This document shows positions 11,595-32,428 of a stretch of 32,575 nucleotides of DNA, one piece after another. The notes under the pieces were generated by a model. That model did not search any database and had not been told where the DNA came from. It was given only the letters and a program-made list of their open reading frames with translations. This stretch comes from a virus. The stretch is taken from the IMG/VR virus record IMGVR_UViG_3300025264_000059, positions 1 through 32,575 of that record. One strand, written 5' to 3'. Made by a program: the position numbers and the translations under genes. Position 1 is the stretch's first letter, and every line of letters starts with the position of its first letter.

Positions 11595-13931
11595 ATGGCC
11601 GCAAGAAATATAGTAAAAGGTGTAGTTAAAGGTATCAAAGAACTACAAGAAATAATAGATGATACTAGTTTAAAGACTAGATCTAAAAAACCTGTTGTAC
11701 CTAAAACAAAGACTAAATCTAAAAAAACTACTCCACCTGCAAAACAAAAACAAGGTAGACCAAGGAAGTATACAACTCAAGAACATAATGAAGCTAGACG
11801 GGCTGGTTATAAATCTACAGGAAAGTATTTCGAAGATAAAGCAGCTGGTACACTTAAAAGCAGAGAAGTAAGTCCTGCTTCTGCTAAAAGAAGAAAAACA
11901 AAAGCAGCAGATAAAGCAACAAGATCACAATATAAAAGTACAGTTAAAGAAGCCTCCAAATTAAAATCACGTAATGCTCAAGCAAAGATTCTTGAGAAGG
12001 AAACTCCTGAATTATACAGAAACATATGGAAGAATCTCAATTTTAGTTCTCCAACGGCTTTTAAAAAATCTAGATTTAAAGGATTAGATGACGAGCTAGA
12101 AAGTTTATATGAAAGATATAAAGTTAAGAAACCAGAAAAAATACCTGATAAGGCACAAGAACAACTAACAGCATTAACTCTTAAACAGAGAAAGCAAGCA
12201 GAAGAAGCTGCACGAGAAGAAATAGGAAGACGATTAGGTTTACGTACAGGATCACCATACTTTAAAAAGGTAACAGAACAACGTAAATTTTCAGCTCCTA
12301 AACTTAAAGGAGAATCTCCAGAAGATAGACTTAAACGAGTTAGTCAGATTGGTCGTTTACTGGAAGAGACACCTAGCCAAAGAAATTTAAGAATGAGTGG
12401 AGAAGTACCTGCTGGTGGTATACGAGGTCATATTAAATCTCTTGATGAAACAGTTGAAGATCCATATCGTATAGGTGGTCAATACCATCGTGGTGATCAT
12501 ATGGTTGCCTCACCTATAACAAGACATAATATAGAACCAAACATTCATGCCGTAATGGATGAACGAATGGGTGCTCCTATTGGTAAACAAATTTTACATC
12601 ATGGCGAAACACGATTACCTTCTTTAGATATAATGGGGCCGGGACGTAGACCAGCACAAGGAGGATACTATAGTGAGACTATGATTCGGGGAGATAAGCC
12701 ACTTTCAAGAAATATAATGGCATCTCGTGATCCTCAGTTTGGAGTACTTAGACCAAAAACTCAAATGGATTTTACTCCTACACAAGCAAAACAATTTAAT
12801 AAATATTTAGATGATACATATCCTAAGTTAACACCATCTGAGAAAGAGGATATTACTGTAAGTATGATTAATACAGGTAGAGCTAAACTTCCCGAAGGTT
12901 TTACGAATCCTGTAACACAGAATAGAAATATATACGGAACACAACCACCAGCTTATGAAAGAAGAACTCCAGTTGAAACGGCTGGTCAATTACCACCAAG
13001 ATTTGATGAAGCTACTAATCAATGGGTTACAGATGCTCCAACATTAGGAATGTCTGGTAGATTACCTAAAGGACTTAGAGAAAGAAGAGAAACTTTAGTT
13101 CCTCCTGCTTCTCAAGTAAGTCAGGAAGCAGGATATATTATTCCTAAAGATAGAGCTATGGAATTAGAAAATCTAATAGATGCAGAAAATATCGGAGCAG
13201 CACCAAAGATGATATCTCCTCGTGCTCAGAAATATGCTACCGAATCTCCTTATCCTACTCTACCAAGACGAGCTACAGGACCAGATCCAGAAACCATTGT
13301 AGAAAATATTATTTTAAAACGTGTAGCTGCCAGACAGCAAATGGCTGGAGAAGATGTAGCAGCAGGAGAAACTGCTAGAATGGCAGCTAAAGCAGCTAGA
13401 CGAGAAACTACTCCTACCTTTCCTCCAACAAGACCTTTTACTCCTACTAATGTTCCAGCAGGTGTTAGAGGAACAAGGCAAGTAGAAGGCACAGCAAGTC
13501 CTTATAGTGAAGGAGTAGATCAATTTATAGATGCTCCACGGATACGAAGAGCACAAGGAGAAGTAGAAACTCTTGGATATTCTCAACCTTCTATGCCAAG
13601 GTTAACTAAAAAACAGTTGACACAGCAAAGAACAATGGATAAGATGGAAAGAGAGATTATAGCTATACGAGCTAAAGGAAATGAGTTTACCAGAAAATTA
13701 AATGAAACATGGGAAACTCCAGAAACTTTAGCTAAGACAGCAGATTATAAGAAATGGAAAAAGAAAAGAGAAGCCCTAAAGAAGAAGATTAAAAAACAAT
13801 TTCCTGATTGGCAGGATCAACGTACTGGAGATCCTATGGTCAATACATTTAAAAAGGGTAGTAGTATAAGACGTAGTAATGGTGGACAAATTAAAAAACC
13901 AAGAGGATGGGGCAAGGCCCGATATAAATAG
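11595..13931 (+). CDS. large basic protein with AT-hook-like motif
   Basis: A 778-residue protein of unknown function with a Lys/Thr-rich, probably disordered first 60 residues. Within it, KQGRPRKY (about 52-59) matches the GRP core of AT-hooks, which bind the minor groove of AT-rich DNA. The rest is charged, Arg/Lys/Pro-rich and mostly lacks apolar runs. A central segment (about 300-450) with repeated His, Gly and Pro residues (for example HHGETRLPSLDIMGPG) looks more ordered. The C-terminus has helical KKKIKKQFPDWQDQ and ends in NGGQIKKPRGWGKARYK, a tail echoed by the next protein. No transmembrane segment is clear. Its size and position suggest a virion-internal protein. No enzyme motif was found. 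Confidence 0.68.
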   Translation: MAARNIVKGVVKGIKELQEIIDDTSLKTRSKKPVVPKTKTKSKKTTPPAKQKQGRPRKYTTQEHNEARRAGYKSTGKYFEDKAAGTLKSREVSPASAKRRKTKAADKATRSQYKSTVKEASKLKSRNAQAKILEKETPELYRNIWKNLNFSSPTAFKKSRFKGLDDELESLYERYKVKKPEKIPDKAQEQLTALTLKQRKQAEEAAREEIGRRLGLRTGSPYFKKVTEQRKFSAPKLKGESPEDRLKRVSQIGRLLEETPSQRNLRMSGEVPAGGIRGHIKSLDETVEDPYRIGGQYHRGDHMVASPITRHNIEPNIHAVMDERMGAPIGKQILHHGETRLPSLDIMGPGRRPAQGGYYSETMIRGDKPLSRNIMASRDPQFGVLRPKTQMDFTPTQAKQFNKYLDDTYPKLTPSEKEDITVSMINTGRAKLPEGFTNPVTQNRNIYGTQPPAYERRTPVETAGQLPPRFDEATNQWVTDAPTLGMSGRLPKGLRERRETLVPPASQVSQEAGYIIPKDRAMELENLIDAENIGAAPKMISPRAQKYATESPYPTLPRRATGPDPETIVENIILKRVAARQQMAGEDVAAGETARMAAKAARRETTPTFPPTRPFTPTNVPAGVRGTRQVEGTASPYSEGVDQFIDAPRIRRAQGEVETLGYSQPSMPRLTKKQLTQQRTMDKMEREIIAIRAKGNEFTRKLNETWETPETLAKTADYKKWKKKREALKKKIKKQFPDWQDQRTGDPMVNTFKKGSSIRRSNGGQIKKPRGWGKARYK

Positions 13932-13942
13932 AGGAGATTATT

Positions 13943-14638
13943 ATGTTAAAAGCAGCAATTAATATTCTTAAAGCAGTATCGAAGGAAAGAAGAAAATCTA
14001 AGTGGAAGGGAGAGGGTGATGCTCCCATGAGAGGGCGTAGAAAACCTAAATCGGGTGAAGGCGAAGATCCTTTACAAGCTAAAGGTTATAGAGATGCAGA
14101 GAAAGCTCGTAAGGCAGCTGCTCGAAAACGAAGAGAAGCAGCCCGAAGAAGAAAGAAGCAGCCATCTAAATATTCAGAAGGTACAGATCCGTATGTAAAA
14201 GATCCTACTGTTCCTAGGAGAAGAAGGTCAAGGTTTAATAAAAAGAAGGCAGCTGCTGCTGTAATTACTGGTACAGCTGTTGGTTCTCTTCTTCCTGAAC
14301 GATCATCTGATAAGAAGGATACAAAGCCTAAGAAAAAAACTTATGTAGTAAAGTCTGGTGATACTCTTTCAGAAATAGCAAAACGAACTGGAACAACTCT
14401 TAAAAAATTAAAAGAAGCTAATCCACAGATTAAAAATATTCATAAAATATTTGCAGGACAAAAAATTAAATTACCCGGACGTACTGAGATATATAGAAAA
14501 TCTGTATATCAAGGAATGAAAAAGTCTGAACTTTCCCGGCGTAAGGGTGGAGTAGTTAAACGTAATCAAGGTGGCATGATTGGTGTAGGTGCTGCATTAC
14601 GTGGTTATGGTAAAGGATATAAAACAGATGCCTTTTAA
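13943..14638 (+). CDS. LysM-domain protein with basic N-terminus
   Basis: A 231-residue protein with a LysM peptidoglycan-binding domain at about 133-178 (TYVVKSGDTLSEIAKRTG, then LKEANPQIKNIHKIFAGQKI, LPG). Residues 15-100 are very rich in Arg, Lys and Ala, followed by a short apolar segment (AAAAVITGTAVGSLLP, about 103-118) that may span or touch a membrane. The linker DKKDTKPK (about 123-130) also appears in the protein at 1747. The tail RKGGVVKRNQGGMIGVGAAL then RGYGKGYK echoes the end of the upstream protein. No lysozyme, amidase or transglycosylase domain is present, so it is a cell-wall binder, not an evident endolysin. It overlaps the next gene. Confidence 0.78.
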   Translation: MLKAAINILKAVSKERRKSKWKGEGDAPMRGRRKPKSGEGEDPLQAKGYRDAEKARKAAARKRREAARRRKKQPSKYSEGTDPYVKDPTVPRRRRSRFNKKKAAAAVITGTAVGSLLPERSSDKKDTKPKKKTYVVKSGDTLSEIAKRTGTTLKKLKEANPQIKNIHKIFAGQKIKLPGRTEIYRKSVYQGMKKSELSRRKGGVVKRNQGGMIGVGAALRGYGKGYKTDAF

Positions 14639-26120: not shown

Positions 26121-26404
26121 TGGCTAGGTATCCAGAGTTTCCAGTAATTTTTCCTGATGATGTTAAAAGAGGAGTATCTTATATTTATAGTAGGTTTCAG
26201 CAATGGGGTGCTGCACTTGTTAATGAATTGGATACACGAGATCAAATACAGGATGCTACACCATCTACTAATATTTATGCAGTAGTAACGGTAGGTAGTA
26301 TTGAGAGGCCAGATAAAGGTGATATAGCTTACTCAGTTAGTGCAGGTAAGTTTAAAGGATACGTTAGTACGGCAGGAACTCAAGCATGGCAGGATTTAAA
26401 CTAA
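26120..26404 (+). CDS. small hypothetical structural protein
   Basis: A 94-residue protein translationally coupled to the previous gene (TAATG overlap) and to the next. The N-terminal half is helical (FPDDVKRGVSYIYSRFQQWG). The C-terminal half is beta-like, with a phrase DIAYSVSAGKFKGYVSTAG that resembles the 'KGYV....TWQDLN' ends of small tail proteins in related phages as I recall. It lacks known motifs. Its place behind the hub candidate suggests a tail role. Confidence 0.66.
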   Translation: MARYPEFPVIFPDDVKRGVSYIYSRFQQWGAALVNELDTRDQIQDATPSTNIYAVVTVGSIERPDKGDIAYSVSAGKFKGYVSTAGTQAWQDLN

Positions 26405-27471
26405 TGACTGACAGATCTCAACAAAATAAAACTAGTAATATAATTGAGCAGTTTTTGAAAAAAATTGTAGCTGATAGGAACCGAGCTCCAACAGTCACGA
26501 CTGACGATCAGCACAGACTTGGTGATCTGGACTACAGAGTGGAATTGGACCCAGAACTTGCACCCACTCCTCTGGGCCAACTGGCATACTGGGATATAAG
26601 AGAAAAGTCAGGAGGAGATGTTTCTCAATACATTAAAAATGTAATGGGTAACCCTGAGAAAGACTATATTATGGGTGATGATCCAGAAGATCCTATCTAT
26701 GGCACACGGACTAGAGGTATTCATGACCCATCAACAGGTATAGTTCGTGCAAACGTTACAGATTTGGTGGATCTGTTTGGTCCTGAACATGCAGAACTTC
26801 AGCATCAGACAGGAGGAGACATAGTTATGTCCCATGAACTGGGTCATGCTGGAATACAACTTCTTAGGGAGGCTAAAAAACTACCGGAAGGATCTAACCG
26901 TTTCTATGAAGAAGATATATTGCAGATACTGGATGCAATTGGATATGGAACGAGGGGAGGAAAAGTATCTCCTCCTTGGAAATCAGAGGGTATATTTTCG
27001 GGTGAAGGTCCAGTAGGTAAATCGGACAGGTCTTCTGAAGAAAAAAATGTTGACTATGCAAGAACTGCTACTGGAGTGATGACGGGAGAACTAGGTGACC
27101 TTACTCCATATGAACGGGAACTAGCTGCATACGTAACAGAGTTGAATAAAGTAGCTACAGAGGAACTGGCCTCCAGAAAGAAATCGTATAAACCACCAGT
27201 AAAAAAGGCTGAGGGAGGCTTGCTTAGTATGGCTTTAAGTACTGAATCACAAACATCTCCTATGATTAGTAAAGATATTTTAGATAGTACTTTAGTTCAA
27301 AATTTAAATCAAGGATTAGGAGTGCCTTCTTATCTTGAAGGAACAACTATACAAAAATTATTACAACCAAGTGTAGATTTGAATAATCCTGCTTATGCAA
27401 ACCAAAATACATTAGTAGCTGATAATACATTGGCACAATCAAATTATATGAATACACGGAGAATGGCATAA
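26404..27471 (+). CDS. HExxH metallopeptidase-like protein
   Basis: A 355-residue protein (MTDRSQQNKTSN start at 26404 preferred because of the TAATG junction with the preceding stop and AGGA at 26393-26396; an in-frame ATG at 26386 is possible). The segment IVMSHELGHAGIQLLREA (His144, Glu145, His148) is a textbook zinc-metallopeptidase helix with two His ligands and a catalytic Glu. The third ligand could be a Glu in YERELAAYVTEL (about 236-247), as in gluzincin-like folds, but is not certain. The C-terminus has the recurrent AEGGLLSMAL motif and a disordered Gln/Asn/Leu-rich tail. It sits just before the ejection-type proteins. Predicted roles are peptidoglycan opening or virion-protein cleavage; the substrate is unknown. 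Confidence 0.72.
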   Translation: MTDRSQQNKTSNIIEQFLKKIVADRNRAPTVTTDDQHRLGDLDYRVELDPELAPTPLGQLAYWDIREKSGGDVSQYIKNVMGNPEKDYIMGDDPEDPIYGTRTRGIHDPSTGIVRANVTDLVDLFGPEHAELQHQTGGDIVMSHELGHAGIQLLREAKKLPEGSNRFYEEDILQILDAIGYGTRGGKVSPPWKSEGIFSGEGPVGKSDRSSEEKNVDYARTATGVMTGELGDLTPYERELAAYVTELNKVATEELASRKKSYKPPVKKAEGGLLSMALSTESQTSPMISKDILDSTLVQNLNQGLGVPSYLEGTTIQKLLQPSVDLNNPAYANQNTLVADNTLAQSNYMNTRRMA

Positions 27472-29441
27472 TGGCATACAATGTAGAACAATTAATAAAT
27501 TTACAAAATCAAATAGGTAGTCAACCTGTTATGCCTGATGCTATGGATAGATATCAAGCTATGAGGCGAATGAGTTTTCCTGCAAATTCCGGTGGATTGT
27601 TATCTATGTTAGAAGGAGGCGGTCAACCTCAACATTCGGGTACAGCTCAAGCACTTGCATCTAAAGGTAGATTCGGAGATACTATGCTAATGCATGTAAA
27701 TCCAGAAGAAGTTCAAGGTATAGCTTCTGTAGCAGGTGGTTTAACAATAAATCCAGAAACAGGATTACCTGAAGCATTCTGGGCTGCACTCCCATTCCTT
27801 GCTAAAGCTGCTATTGTAGGGGCAGGTATAGGTGCTGCTCGTAAAGCAACGGGTGGTAGTGGTAGTTGGATACAAAATATTCTTGGTGGTGCTGGTATCG
27901 GATTAATGGGTGGAGCAGCTATAGGTCCAGCAGGATTAGGATTAATAGGGACTCCAGCAGCAGCAGGAGCAGGAGGAGCAGCTACAACAGCTGCTAATGT
28001 TGCTGGTCTTGCTGGAACCGGAGGGACAACCTTAACACAAGGAGCTTTAGCTGCACAATTAGCTAATCCAACTTTAATACCAACAGCTTATGGAACTGCT
28101 GGAATTGGTGGTAGTCTTATTCCTCATGCTACACAAGCAGGTATATTAAGTGGAGCCAATGTTCCTCTGCAACAAGCTGCCATTCAAAATGTAGCAGGTT
28201 CTCAAGGCTTTGGACAATTTGGCCTTAGTCCTCAAAATATGGTTGCTGCTTCTCAACCATCTTCTACTCCCGTACTATTTGGAGCTAATAAGATCCCAAC
28301 GGGTTCTGTTACTCAAGGATTACAGCAACAAATAGCAGGTTCTATTCCTAAAGCAGCTCCAGAACAAAAACTTAATTGGTTTGAAAAGTTATTTAGTTCT
28401 CCTGAAAAAGATGCATCAAAAAAAGAAACAGGAGGACTTTATGATACATTAATGTCAGAAGTAACTGAACATCCTTATCGAACAGGAGCTACTGCATTAA
28501 CTCTAGCTTCTCTATTACCTTCAGGTGAAGAATACGAAGGCTATGAAGTACCTGAATCTACATTTGGAAAAGATGCAGGTGAGGCAGAGTTTATAAAGAA
28601 AGATCCTAGAATAGTACGAGAAGATCTAACAGATGAAGAAGCAGATCTTTTAGCTAGTGAAGGTGGAGACTATGGATTTTTTAGTCAAACAGCTTCTAAT
28701 GGTGGTATTGTAGCATTACAAGCTGGTGGTCAGAGTGGTCCAAAAGCAGGAGGACATCCAGCTGCAATATCACGACAACAACAAAGTATTCCAAGAAAAC
28801 CAGATAGACCATCTACTCCTATACCTCCTGAACTAATAGCAGAATCTGCTGCACCATTTCAAACTAGATTGTCTTCATTTAATGTAGATGATATATTATC
28901 TAAGATAGGTGGAACATCTAATCCTGTAAGTATTTTAGATGTACCTAAAGTACCGTTAAATATTCCAGTAGGAATTACGAATCAATTAGATAGTTTAATA
29001 AATAGAGCTATAGAAACACCACAAATTTCTGAATCTCCAGATAATGGTGCATTAGCAGAGTTATTGAAGAGATATTCTACTTTATCTCAAGAACAACCTG
29101 TAATACAAACTTCAGCTGATGGTGGATCTATTCAATTAGCTACAGGTGGAGAATTTGAAGGACGAGTGCAAGGACAGGGAGATGGTATGTCAGATCAGAT
29201 AGCTTTTAATGTAGTACCTCAGACTCCAGCTGATATACCGAATACTCCTGATGTAGCTTTACTAAGTACCGATGAATATGTTGTACCTGCTGATGTTGTT
29301 TCCATGTTAGGAAATGGTAGTAGTACAGCAGGATCTAAAATATTAGATCATTTTAATCAGACTATGAGACAAAAAGCTCATGGAACAAACAAACAACAAA
29401 CTCAAATTAATGCAGGAAAGGAGCTATCCAGACTAACATAA
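27471..29441 (+). CDS. putative ejection/internal virion protein 1
   Basis: A 656-residue protein. It has a Gly/Ala-rich, weakly hydrophobic region at about 103-200 (AALPFLAKAAIVGAGIGAAR, then ILGGAGIGLMGGAAIGPAG), which could insert into a membrane. It carries the recurrent motifs SGGLLSML (40-47), NGGIVALQAGG (about 415) and DGGSIQLATGG (about 552). The C-terminus has GQGDGMSDQIAFNV, STDEYVVPADVVSMLGNGSS and HFNQTMRQKAHG, a conserved-looking ending in related phages. The module at 66-103 (GRFGDTMLMHVNPEEVQG ... TINPETGLPE) recurs in the protein at 29867. Position and composition fit a protein ejected with DNA to form a membrane conduit, but direct proof is lacking. Confidence 0.62.
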   Translation: MAYNVEQLINLQNQIGSQPVMPDAMDRYQAMRRMSFPANSGGLLSMLEGGGQPQHSGTAQALASKGRFGDTMLMHVNPEEVQGIASVAGGLTINPETGLPEAFWAALPFLAKAAIVGAGIGAARKATGGSGSWIQNILGGAGIGLMGGAAIGPAGLGLIGTPAAAGAGGAATTAANVAGLAGTGGTTLTQGALAAQLANPTLIPTAYGTAGIGGSLIPHATQAGILSGANVPLQQAAIQNVAGSQGFGQFGLSPQNMVAASQPSSTPVLFGANKIPTGSVTQGLQQQIAGSIPKAAPEQKLNWFEKLFSSPEKDASKKETGGLYDTLMSEVTEHPYRTGATALTLASLLPSGEEYEGYEVPESTFGKDAGEAEFIKKDPRIVREDLTDEEADLLASEGGDYGFFSQTASNGGIVALQAGGQSGPKAGGHPAAISRQQQSIPRKPDRPSTPIPPELIAESAAPFQTRLSSFNVDDILSKIGGTSNPVSILDVPKVPLNIPVGITNQLDSLINRAIETPQISESPDNGALAELLKRYSTLSQEQPVIQTSADGGSIQLATGGEFEGRVQGQGDGMSDQIAFNVVPQTPADIPNTPDVALLSTDEYVVPADVVSMLGNGSSTAGSKILDHFNQTMRQKAHGTNKQQTQINAGKELSRLT

Positions 29442-29442
29442 A

Positions 29443-29874
29443 ATGATTGTATTAAAAATAGAACCTCAGTATATAGATGTTCTTTGGCCTTATGTAGAAC
29501 CTCTATTGAAGAAACCAATGGAACGTACGTTAGATGAAATTACATTAGAAGATATTAAAAACTGGCTAAAAGCAAACCAACAACAGCTTTGGTTAGGTGT
29601 AGATGAGCAGGAACAAGAAATTATTTTAGCAATAACAACTCAAATATATGTATATCCAAAGCAATCACATTTACGTATACACATGGCAGGATCAAAAAAG
29701 CATACAATTGATAGTTGGATTAATGAATGGATAGAACCGATGGAAAAATTCTGTAAAGAAAATGAAATACGTTATTTAGAAACAGCTGGTCGAGATGGAT
29801 GGACAAGATTATTAAAGAAAAAAGGATACGAAAAGTATTATACTGTTCTAGTGAAGGAAATAAAAGATGACTGA
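29443..29874 (+). CDS. GNAT-fold-like small protein (T7 gp13-like position)
   Basis: A 143-residue protein with a GNAT-like layout: an opening beta-alpha unit (IEPQYIDVLWPYVEPLLKK), QQLWLGVDEQEQEIILAITT and LRIHMAGSKKHTIDSWINEW, with the familiar C-terminal phrase GRDGWTRLLKKKGYEKYYTV (116-135). Podoviruses often have such a protein beside ejection proteins; it may be structural (compare T7 gp13) or an acetyltransferase-like enzyme. The acetyl-CoA signature (Q/RxxGxG/A) is not evident, so catalysis is doubtful. It sits between the two large ejection candidates and overlaps the next gene by eight bases (ATGACTGA). Confidence 0.65.
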   Translation: MIVLKIEPQYIDVLWPYVEPLLKKPMERTLDEITLEDIKNWLKANQQQLWLGVDEQEQEIILAITTQIYVYPKQSHLRIHMAGSKKHTIDSWINEWIEPMEKFCKENEIRYLETAGRDGWTRLLKKKGYEKYYTVLVKEIKDD

Positions 29875-32428
29875 TACACAAAAACTTATATCAACTTTGG
29901 GAATGCCAGAGAAAGTTACATTGTTTAAGGAATTATACAGTGAACTTTCAGGATATGGCATAGAAGGAGATACAGAACTTGCTCATGTAAATACATTTGA
30001 AGTTAGTCTTCTGAAATCTTTTGGTGGATCTGGTACTATTAATGAAGTAACGGGTTTACGAGAGTATAAAGGTGGTGGTGGTTCTCCTCCTCCGCCGCCA
30101 GCCTCTAGTCAGACAGTATCACAGACTTCAGAATTTCCTACAGAAATAAAACCATTTATTACAGATATTTTAAAAGAAGGTAAGGGTGAATTTGGTAGGG
30201 AAAAAGAAGAAGGATATCTAAGATTTCCCGGTTCTCAACTTGCTGGATTTACACCTGAACAACTAGCTGTTTTTGGTTTAGGTAGACAACAGTTTACAGG
30301 ATTAGCTGGAACACCTCTTGGTCAAGCAAGCACATATTATACACCAGCATTAGCTGCTACTGGACTTGGTACATCTGAGATAGGTACAGGAGATATAGCA
30401 CGTAGAATGGACCCATTCATACAGAATGTGGTAGATGTAGCCAAGAGAGAAGCAGGAAGAGATGAAGAGTTAGCTAGGCAGCAACGTGCAGCACAAGCAG
30501 TAGGAGCTGGATCATTTGGTGGTTCCAGACAAGCTATATTAGAGGCTGAAGGAGAAAGAAATCTTGCAGAAAGACTTGGTGATATTCAGGCACGAGGATT
30601 ATCCACGGCATTTCAGAATGCACAACGAGCAGCTGAACAACAACGAGCCAGAGAGATGACAGGTGGTAGGCAGTTTGCAGCATTGGGAGATATAACAGGA
30701 ACACGAGCACGATCTGATCTGGCAGGTTTATCAGGTATAGGTGAAGTTCAGCAGCAACGTCAGCAGCAAGCATTAGATATTGCACGTAGAGAATTTGAAC
30801 AAGAAAAGGCTTTTCCTCAAACTGCTTTACAACGGTATGCCTCTCTTATTAGAGGATTTCCTCTTGCTCCTAACCAACAGCAAGTTACAACTACTAGAGA
30901 ACGACCTCCCTCTTTTGCTTCACAGCTAACAGCAGCTGGATTAGGAGCTGCTGGTATGTATGGTATGTTTGGAGGATTTAATCCTACTCCTCCTCCTGCT
31001 GCTAGTGCTGCTGGTGGTCTCGTAGGACTAGCTGAAGGTGGTACAGTACAACCACAAGAAGGAGTAACTAGTGGTAGTAAAGCTGGTAGTGGTGGTGGTG
31101 GTAAAGCTGGTGGTAATAATAGATATCTAAAATTATTGATGATGAACCCAGAGATTGCTAAACAATTAAAAGACAAATTTGGATTAACAATTGATTCAAG
31201 TGGAAACTGGAGCAGGGCTGTTAATCAAGCAGCACAACAAATTAGACAGCCTTTTGCTAATATTAATCTAGGAAATTATATCAAGACTAAGAGTGATGGT
31301 GGATTGTTATCAGTTATTAAGAGAGCAAAACAAGGTCCAGTATCATTAAGTGAAAGATTAGATCCACGATATAAAACAACTGAGCTATTTAGTCCTGAGT
31401 TTATGGAAGAATATGCATCTAAGGATTCTTCAGAAGCAGAACCTGTAGTAATTCCTGAAGTTCCTAAGGACGATCCTCCTCTTACTTCATATGAAGAGCT
31501 TATGGCAGCACAAGTGGAATTACTAAACAGACTAAGAGGAGAGAAAACTTTATTACAAGCAGATGTAACTGAAACTGAAAACTTAATTAATAAATTATTA
31601 AAGGACAGTCCAGAAAAAACAAAAGCAGCTGAACAAAAAGAAATAAGAGATTTCTATTTAGAAGAACAACGGTTAGCTGAAGAAAACAAAAAGAAAATAG
31701 GAGAACGATATGGGCAGAGTATGGGAATGGCTGCTTGGTCAGCTGCTCCCCATTTTCTAGAACCCGGAAAAACATGGGGAGAACAAGCAATTTCAGCAAA
31801 AGAGTCAACACTCCCACGTATTGAACAAGCTCAAGCAGATAAATATGCTGCTGAAGATTTAAGTACTGAAGCTGCACGAGATAGACGATTAGCTCAACGA
31901 GGTGAAGAGAAGTTAGTTGATGATATGATTTGGGAAAATAGATTAAAACGTATAGATCTAAACCGAGCTAAGACAACTGATAAACTAAAACTTGCTGCCT
32001 TAGATAAAGAAGCAGCAGCAATACATTTAGAAATGGAAAAATATGAACATCAGCTTAAACTATCATATGGTCTTGGTAATATAGAATTAGGTGATACAAG
32101 TTCTTTAGTAGCTGATATAGAATCAGGTATGTATGGAGATATTATAAAGTCTATGGATAAAGTAGCAATATATGCTATGGTACAGCAAGCTAAACAAAAT
32201 ATAATAAATAAATATTCTAGACCTGATGCTGAACCGATTGTAACTCCAGAGCAAACTATCTTAGAAGTAGAACGGGAAGTACAAAGATTGGTAGCTGCAG
32301 AACTAAAGAGACAACGACAAGCTGATCTAAACAAAGGAAATAAAGGAGGTAAAGGAGATGGAGAAAAGACAGGTGCTGCTCCTTTAAGTCAAACAGCTAT
32401 AGACGCATTAAATACGAGAGTATACTAA
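29867..32428 (+). CDS. putative ejection/internal virion protein 2
   Basis: An 853-residue protein. Residues 33-68 (EGDTELAHVNTFEVSLLKSF ... GTINEVTGLREY) resemble the module of the protein at 27471. A polyproline linker (SPPPPPASS) follows. The region at about 100-370 is a helical phage segment (FIQNVVDVAKREAGRDEELA, GAGSFGGSRQAILEAEGERN, AFQNAQRAAEQQRAREM, FEQEKAFPQTALQRYASLIR), like a family near the tail end of podovirus genomes. A short Gly/Ala hydrophobic region at about 345-370 and GG motifs (AAGGLVGLAEGGTV, SDGGLLSVI) follow. The C-terminal half is helical with coiled-coil stretches (about 545-620 and 700-730). It lies next to the GNAT-like gene. Role in genome ejection is inferred. 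Confidence 0.62.
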   Translation: MTDTQKLISTLGMPEKVTLFKELYSELSGYGIEGDTELAHVNTFEVSLLKSFGGSGTINEVTGLREYKGGGGSPPPPPASSQTVSQTSEFPTEIKPFITDILKEGKGEFGREKEEGYLRFPGSQLAGFTPEQLAVFGLGRQQFTGLAGTPLGQASTYYTPALAATGLGTSEIGTGDIARRMDPFIQNVVDVAKREAGRDEELARQQRAAQAVGAGSFGGSRQAILEAEGERNLAERLGDIQARGLSTAFQNAQRAAEQQRAREMTGGRQFAALGDITGTRARSDLAGLSGIGEVQQQRQQQALDIARREFEQEKAFPQTALQRYASLIRGFPLAPNQQQVTTTRERPPSFASQLTAAGLGAAGMYGMFGGFNPTPPPAASAAGGLVGLAEGGTVQPQEGVTSGSKAGSGGGGKAGGNNRYLKLLMMNPEIAKQLKDKFGLTIDSSGNWSRAVNQAAQQIRQPFANINLGNYIKTKSDGGLLSVIKRAKQGPVSLSERLDPRYKTTELFSPEFMEEYASKDSSEAEPVVIPEVPKDDPPLTSYEELMAAQVELLNRLRGEKTLLQADVTETENLINKLLKDSPEKTKAAEQKEIRDFYLEEQRLAEENKKKIGERYGQSMGMAAWSAAPHFLEPGKTWGEQAISAKESTLPRIEQAQADKYAAEDLSTEAARDRRLAQRGEEKLVDDMIWENRLKRIDLNRAKTTDKLKLAALDKEAAAIHLEMEKYEHQLKLSYGLGNIELGDTSSLVADIESGMYGDIIKSMDKVAIYAMVQQAKQNIINKYSRPDAEPIVTPEQTILEVEREVQRLVAAELKRQRQADLNKGNKGGKGDGEKTGAAPLSQTAIDALNTRVY

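Follow-up and report, generated by a model that had tools for sequence, protein, structure and literature searches.

The ejection cluster and its genes

The window analysed here is the whole of a virus record of 32,575 bases. It encodes a terminase, a portal, head proteins, tail-fibre-like proteins, a virion structural protein (phrog_3287) and a cluster of genes marked by a Gly-Gly motif. The genes and motif sites of the cluster are listed in Table 1, together with tagged genes of related loci (L numbers). The gene placed at 26404 in the initial annotation exists, but its true coordinates are those in the table, and it is called 26386 here.

Table 1. Genes, motif copies and modules of the Gly-Gly cluster, and tagged genes of relatives.
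Feature	Position	Strand	Basis
Putative metallopeptidase gene, 361 aa; zincin-type module (about aa 20–290) inserted in a small protein (73–83 aa in relatives)	26386..27471	+	Comparison with relatives
HELGH putative zinc-binding motif, aa 150–154	26833..26847	+	Translation
Motif copy AEGGLLSMAL, end of peptidase module	27208..27237	+	Aligned with L004 tail KAAGGFVDKPLYDRNPYGYR
Ejection-cluster protein, 656 aa, mostly predicted disorder	27471..29441	+	AlphaFold2
N-terminal motif copy NSGGLLSMLEGGG, private to the window	27585..27623	+	Strict match; comparison with relatives
Middle motif copy SNGGIVALQAGG; in most relatives KQGGIVGLFSGG, KEGGLVSLQMGG, ANGGIISLYPGG	28695..28730	+	Strict match; relatives
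Degenerate copy DGGSIQLATGG, directly before the C-terminal module	29118..29150	+	Comparison with relatives
C-terminal module FEGRV.GQGDGMSDQIAF...DEYVVPADVVSMLGNGSSTAG	29154..29438	+	AlphaFold2; sequence comparison
Predicted DNA ejection protein, 853 aa	29867..32428	+	phrog_4287 match
Motif copy 1, AAGGLVGLAEGG, shortly after ...MYGMFGGF	31007..31042	+	Comparison with relatives; codon count
Motif copy 2, SDGGLLSV, 95 aa past copy 1	31292..31315	+	Second copy in 9/9
Tagged genes of marine phages	L002:6074-6640, L011:14880-15716, L016:16444-17040, L018:11233-12012; also L319-L352		

The product of gene 29867 is predicted to be a DNA ejection protein from the profile match of its residues 80–373 to phrog_4287 (DNA ejection protein; E 1.7e-13). 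A structure search of BFVD with its model returned as best matches only phage proteins without a named function. The 27471 protein has no match in PHROG or Pfam, Foldseek of its model against the PDB gave no match, and PDB sequence searches with both family profiles found nothing credible. The C-terminal module of the 27471 protein and its GG lead-in resemble the way in which the annotated tape measure protein of Caulobacter phage GB2A ends, which places them close to tail tape measure proteins whose C-terminal module has the form G-x-G-[TD]-G-x-S-D...GE-[FY]-V. Here, however, the module is on a separate 656-aa protein beside the ejection protein.

The 29867 and 27471 proteins also share a second module, GDTxLxHVNxxE...TINxxTGL (window 27675-27767 and 29966-30058). 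The ejection protein of phage Venkman has this module too, and L004:6357-8054 contains a looser version. A 143-aa gene (window 29443-29874) separates the two ejection candidates. Its position is kept in many relatives, and its protein has PHROG matches only to families without assigned function.

Frequency of the motif in the window

All six peptides quoted in the initial annotation were found in the window translations. The strict motif, [ASND]-x-GG-[LI]-[LV]-x-[LM], was scored across the 32 genes of the window and has four matches, at 27208, 27585, 28695 and 31007. As had been claimed, it is common to the metallopeptidase and both ejection candidates, and the strict matches fall only in these three genes. 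The two other listed sites are looser than the pattern under which they were listed: SDGGLLSVI (31292) ends in V-I and does not satisfy the final [LM], and DGGSIQLATGG (29118) has a mismatch at the position after GG, its counterpart in L005 being TGGIVGLATGG. For five of the six sites, relatives also have GG at the corresponding position, for the metallopeptidase site in one relative only (L004), but the N-terminal SGGLLSMLEGG has no counterpart.

The strict motif is far above chance in the window. Composition-preserving shuffles gave 0.055 matches expected over the 32 genes and 0.009 in the three named genes, and none of 1,600 shuffles reached four. With four observed, the possibility that the frequency equals chance in Gly-rich proteins, which would have counted against the motif, falls away. 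The Gly-richest gene, 15938 (15.9% Gly, 34 GG), lacks the strict motif, which argues that the motif is not a by-product of Gly content. This gene, the shuffles and the counts of the reversed peptide given below together rule out Gly-richness as the cause.

A predicted metallopeptidase module with its own GG tail

At the place of 26386, six relatives (L005, L007, L011, L014, L016 and L018) have a gene of head and tail only, 73–83 aa long, and in L004 the peptidase module is a stand-alone protein of 263 aa with 67% identity. The HELGH sequence agrees with the HExxH of zincins and is conserved in L004, and we predict that the product is a zincin-type metallopeptidase; it had no Pfam match at E 0.1 and no PDB sequence match at E 1. 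That the metallopeptidase carries the motif too is confirmed by AEGGLLSMAL at the module end, with which the L004 tail aligns: the C-terminus KAAGGFVDKPLYDRNPYGYR of the stand-alone enzyme corresponds to KKAEGGLLSMAL in the window. Since the GG tail is on both the embedded and the stand-alone peptidase, it belongs to the peptidase module, and the gene is an 83-aa protein into which the module was inserted, the GG tail arriving with it. Among the L004 neighbours, a protein of unrelated sequence ends in RKGGLVDKPLYDRNPYG and a third protein in GGARGSLMDKPLYDRQD.

The metallopeptidase was considered as the protease acting on the motif and was rejected, because relatives without the peptidase retain the motif and the enzyme is not needed for it. 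The same retention counts against the motif as a proteolytic processing site, whether of the double-glycine type or for a phage maturation protease. The motif does contain a double glycine, and in other phages certain ejection and tape measure proteins do undergo processing. A possible cleavage of P22 gp20 is mentioned in a review of podophage ejection proteins (PMC8954989). A C39 double-glycine leader, however, is N-terminal, about 15–30 aa long and ends in GG, and the sites here are internal, some tens and others hundreds of residues into the protein, with GG at aa 41, 411 and 551 of the 27471 protein, 383 and 478 of the 29867 protein and 277 of the 26386 protein. Nor is the conserved hydrophobic/acidic pattern of the C39 type found before the GG; the upstream residues differ, are unalignable among relatives and form no conserved leader. 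We regard processing as improbable.

Copies in the two ejection candidates

Two copies recur in most relatives of the 27471 protein, the middle one and the one before the C-terminal module; L017 is an exception in which only the latter was seen. The N-terminal SGGLLSMLEGG was not found in these relatives. The counterparts of DGGSIQLATGG read TGGIVGLATGG, RGGLVSLAHGG and KGGLLGLANGG. The 27471 orthologues at L014:7278-9573 and L018:1983-4112 each occupy two frames, broken between the motif copies, which may reflect either a sequencing error or a genuine split; the L015 orthologue occupies a single reading frame.

The close 29867 set consists of nine proteins, from the window and from L002, L005, L007, L011, L015, L016, L017 and L018. 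In each of the nine, the conserved N-terminal region (...MYGMFGGF) is closely followed by a first copy, and a second copy lies 86–117 residues beyond the first; the sequence around and between the copies is unalignable across the set. The first copy is GGLV[GS]L in every case, each position being encoded by two to five different codons, and so selection acts on the peptide. This bears on the idea of a recombination joint, in which the shuffling of domains is aided by conserved DNA at module borders and the peptide is simply carried along. The metallopeptidase insertion is the kind of event that such a joint would explain, as are the unrelated enzyme bodies joined to one tail that are described below. 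However, the DNA varies at synonymous positions under a constant peptide, which argues for selection on the protein. A recombination joint is quite improbable as the explanation, and it could be a secondary role.

The more distant 29867 relatives, L019-L024, keep one motif match. The isolated phage Venkman has an ejection protein with the same N-terminal module and no linker motif, which we count against the docking role proposed below. In the cultured Synechococcus phage MinM2, YAEGGALR and YADGGFLAP occur in two proteins that lie near each other. In 14 related records, a looser pattern gave 15 matches and its reverse gave none, and the located matches are mainly in the two ejection-cluster genes.

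Predicted structure around the motif

For the 27471 and 29867 proteins, AlphaFold2 models built from family alignments with 16 and 18 members had mean pLDDT 47 and 54. In the 27471 model, 447 of the 656 residues have pLDDT below 50, and the C-terminal module (about aa 577–640) is the best-predicted part. All five motif sites in the two proteins are in segments with pLDDT below 50; such low values are an indirect sign of disorder, and alignments as shallow as these also lower pLDDT. The description of the motif as lying between domains agrees with these models, which put the copies of both ejection candidates in low-confidence linkers. As between linkers and hairpins, disordered linkers fit, but hairpins are without support. 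A peptide conserved in nine of nine relatives within a region of pLDDT below 50 has the character of a short linear motif.

A Gly-rich motif within predicted linkers would also suit a flexible hinge or structural lead-in, that is, a weakly hydrophobic linker for unfolding and passage through the portal channel, or a strand opening the C-terminal module, with no separate partner. One copy does lie directly before that module in the 27471 relatives. Further copies, however, are far from it, and no strand pairing is predicted. A plain hinge needs no invariant GGLVxL core kept through codon change, and the order of residues matters, since the reversed peptide is rare. We consider a hinge or lead-in rather unlikely, with more in its favour than processing.

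The linker motif in viral and cellular sequences

IMG/VR was scanned with a DNA pattern for EGGI[VA]xLxxGG, and the frame was judged by the longest reading frame. Viral contigs gave at least 121 matches, and 115 of the 121 matches listed are in frame. A complete IMG/VR scan for the reversed peptide gave 30 matches, 13 of them in frame. In bacterial and archaeal genomes, 45 of 119 motif matches are in frame, with one obviously phage-like context. By Fisher test, the in-frame share among the matches listed, whose carriers include each other's relatives, differs at 6e-10 from the reversed peptide and at 6e-23 from cellular genomes. The real excess in viral contigs exceeds that given by the figure of at least 121. 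Comparison by blastp with the motif masked placed the carriers among the matches listed in 29 clusters, the largest with 75 members, and several singleton clusters among them resemble chance matches. The annotated carriers among the matches listed belong mostly to tape measure, virion structural, transglycosylase and tail fibre PHROGs. Taken with the codon counts and the models, these comparisons show a linker motif that is virus-biased, kept by selection on the peptide, in predicted disorder, and recurrent on many unrelated proteins.

A 16-residue C-terminal tag in relatives

Downstream of the ejection cluster, four relatives encode a protein with the C-terminus [TR]GGMI[QS]RNPYP[YH]NPRPI; in gene order, this slot lies past the end of the window. 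The bodies of the tagged proteins differ, being Phage_lysozyme (PF00959) in L016, Phage_lysozyme2 (PF18013) in L018, and one common body with no family assigned in L002 and L011. A scan for GG[ILMVF][IVM]xRNPYP found 34 stretches, and in 30 of them the first Gly is exactly 16 residues from the C-terminus; the consensus of the 16 residues is GG[MI][IV]xRNPYPxxxRx[IY]. About six unrelated groups can be told apart among the tagged bodies; they include HExxH proteins (L335, L340), a body resembling endolysins and tail injection transglycosylases (L328), and another group without assigned function. The DNA of the tag differs at synonymous positions and the peptide is constant. What the relatives show is one exact GG tag of 16 residues on unrelated proteins that are, judging from their family resemblances, cell-wall hydrolases and metallopeptidase-like proteins.

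Records mostly have one tagged gene, and one record has two that are adjacent; one tagged gene per record fits a swapped gene slot equally well as a general cargo tag. GG-hydrophobic peptides at C-termini generally are not enriched (26 observed, 25.2 expected), and a general C-terminal GG tag in the phage group was rejected on that ground. A tblastn search of cultured phages with a query of 23 aa, which has low sensitivity, did not find the 16-residue tag. A second tail type, GG...RGxGxA, is rare among the loci compared. The linker motif and the RNPYP tag have only GG and two hydrophobic residues in common; from these, and from the peptidase tail, we infer that the two may do the same job.

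A membrane-active element, aiding the entry of ejected proteins into the envelope, would account for the hydrophobic residues beside Gly in the ejection proteins. The hydrophobic run, however, is only 3–6 residues, which is too short to span a membrane, and peptides of this type are also in tape-measure-like proteins and on soluble enzymes as a tail. This role is very improbable.

GG-rich ends were also seen on other proteins. The window 11595-13931 protein, which has no assigned function, has the C-terminus NGGQIKKPRGWGKARYK, with GG again 16 residues from the end, and the LysM/endolysin-like protein of window 13943-14638 has the C-terminus KGGVVKRNQGGMIGVGAALRGYGKGYKTDAF, carrying two GG-hydrophobic pairs. 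In marine phage 023Pt_psg01 (L318:3905-5521), a protein adjoining ejection-type genes begins with MSKILRRPMFRGGPVSSYGTGIASGLADGGRVGY, a GG-rich end peptide.

A possible docking peptide for ejected proteins

Docking, cleavage and membrane activity had all been offered as roles in the initial annotation. Docking is the best supported; cleavage is weakened and membrane activity weak. On this reading, the GG-hydrophobic peptide would act as a short linear motif for docking, carried by ejection and tape-measure-like proteins of tailed phages. Placed in flexible linkers, two per protein in this lineage, it would bind, as the particle assembles, either a shared partner located at the portal vertex or another ejection protein. 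The ejection proteins and travelling enzymes would in this way be incorporated together and then exit through the tail. Binding to a partner, the identity of that partner and the presence of tagged proteins in the virion are themselves inferred.

We favour docking because a conserved peptide in predicted disorder recurs on unrelated virion-type proteins of one cluster. The 16-residue tag, constant while the enzyme body changes, argues likewise for cargo enzymes, and we count in favour that unrelated enzymes of relatives keep one exact C-terminal GG tag. Against docking, we count that the tag is usually on one protein per record, that C-terminal GG-hydrophobic peptides lack overall enrichment, and that linker motif and tag are so little alike. 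On balance, we put a docking or incorporation peptide for ejection proteins and companion enzymes tentatively, at a little short of an even chance.

The podophage ejection proteins (P22 gp7/gp16/gp20, T7 gp14/gp15/gp16) are alike in their neighbourhood after tail genes, in the phrog_4287 match and in being long helical and disordered proteins. The T4 capsid-targeting sequence would be alike if a short peptide on different cargo proteins serves incorporation. The prohead protease cuts off the T4 signal, which is N-terminal, whereas the peptides here are GG followed by hydrophobics, the conserved copies being internal and the tags of relatives C-terminal. Polyvalent proteins (Iyer et al. 2017, PMC5512222) include zincin metallopeptidases and lysozymes beside virion genes that are predicted to be injected with the DNA. 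They are alike in such enzymes, but those here are mostly single-domain proteins. The terms glycine and short motif are absent from the text of that paper, and under the terms searched the podophage review (PMC8954989) does not mention a paired GG-hydrophobic linker motif. That the motif has no described role accords with the open-licence literature, where no description of it was found; this is weak evidence of novelty.

A broader extension, doubtful at present, is a widespread phage peptide code in which the linker GG-hydrophobics and the 16-residue C-terminal tag would load ejection proteins and exchangeable enzymes onto one virion adaptor for co-delivery into the cell. How phages select proteins for packing and injection is known for few models. 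If the peptide marks ejection proteins and their companion enzymes, cargo would be predictable from sequence in the many uncultured phages that carry it, and proteins with hardly a family match of their own would become more accessible.
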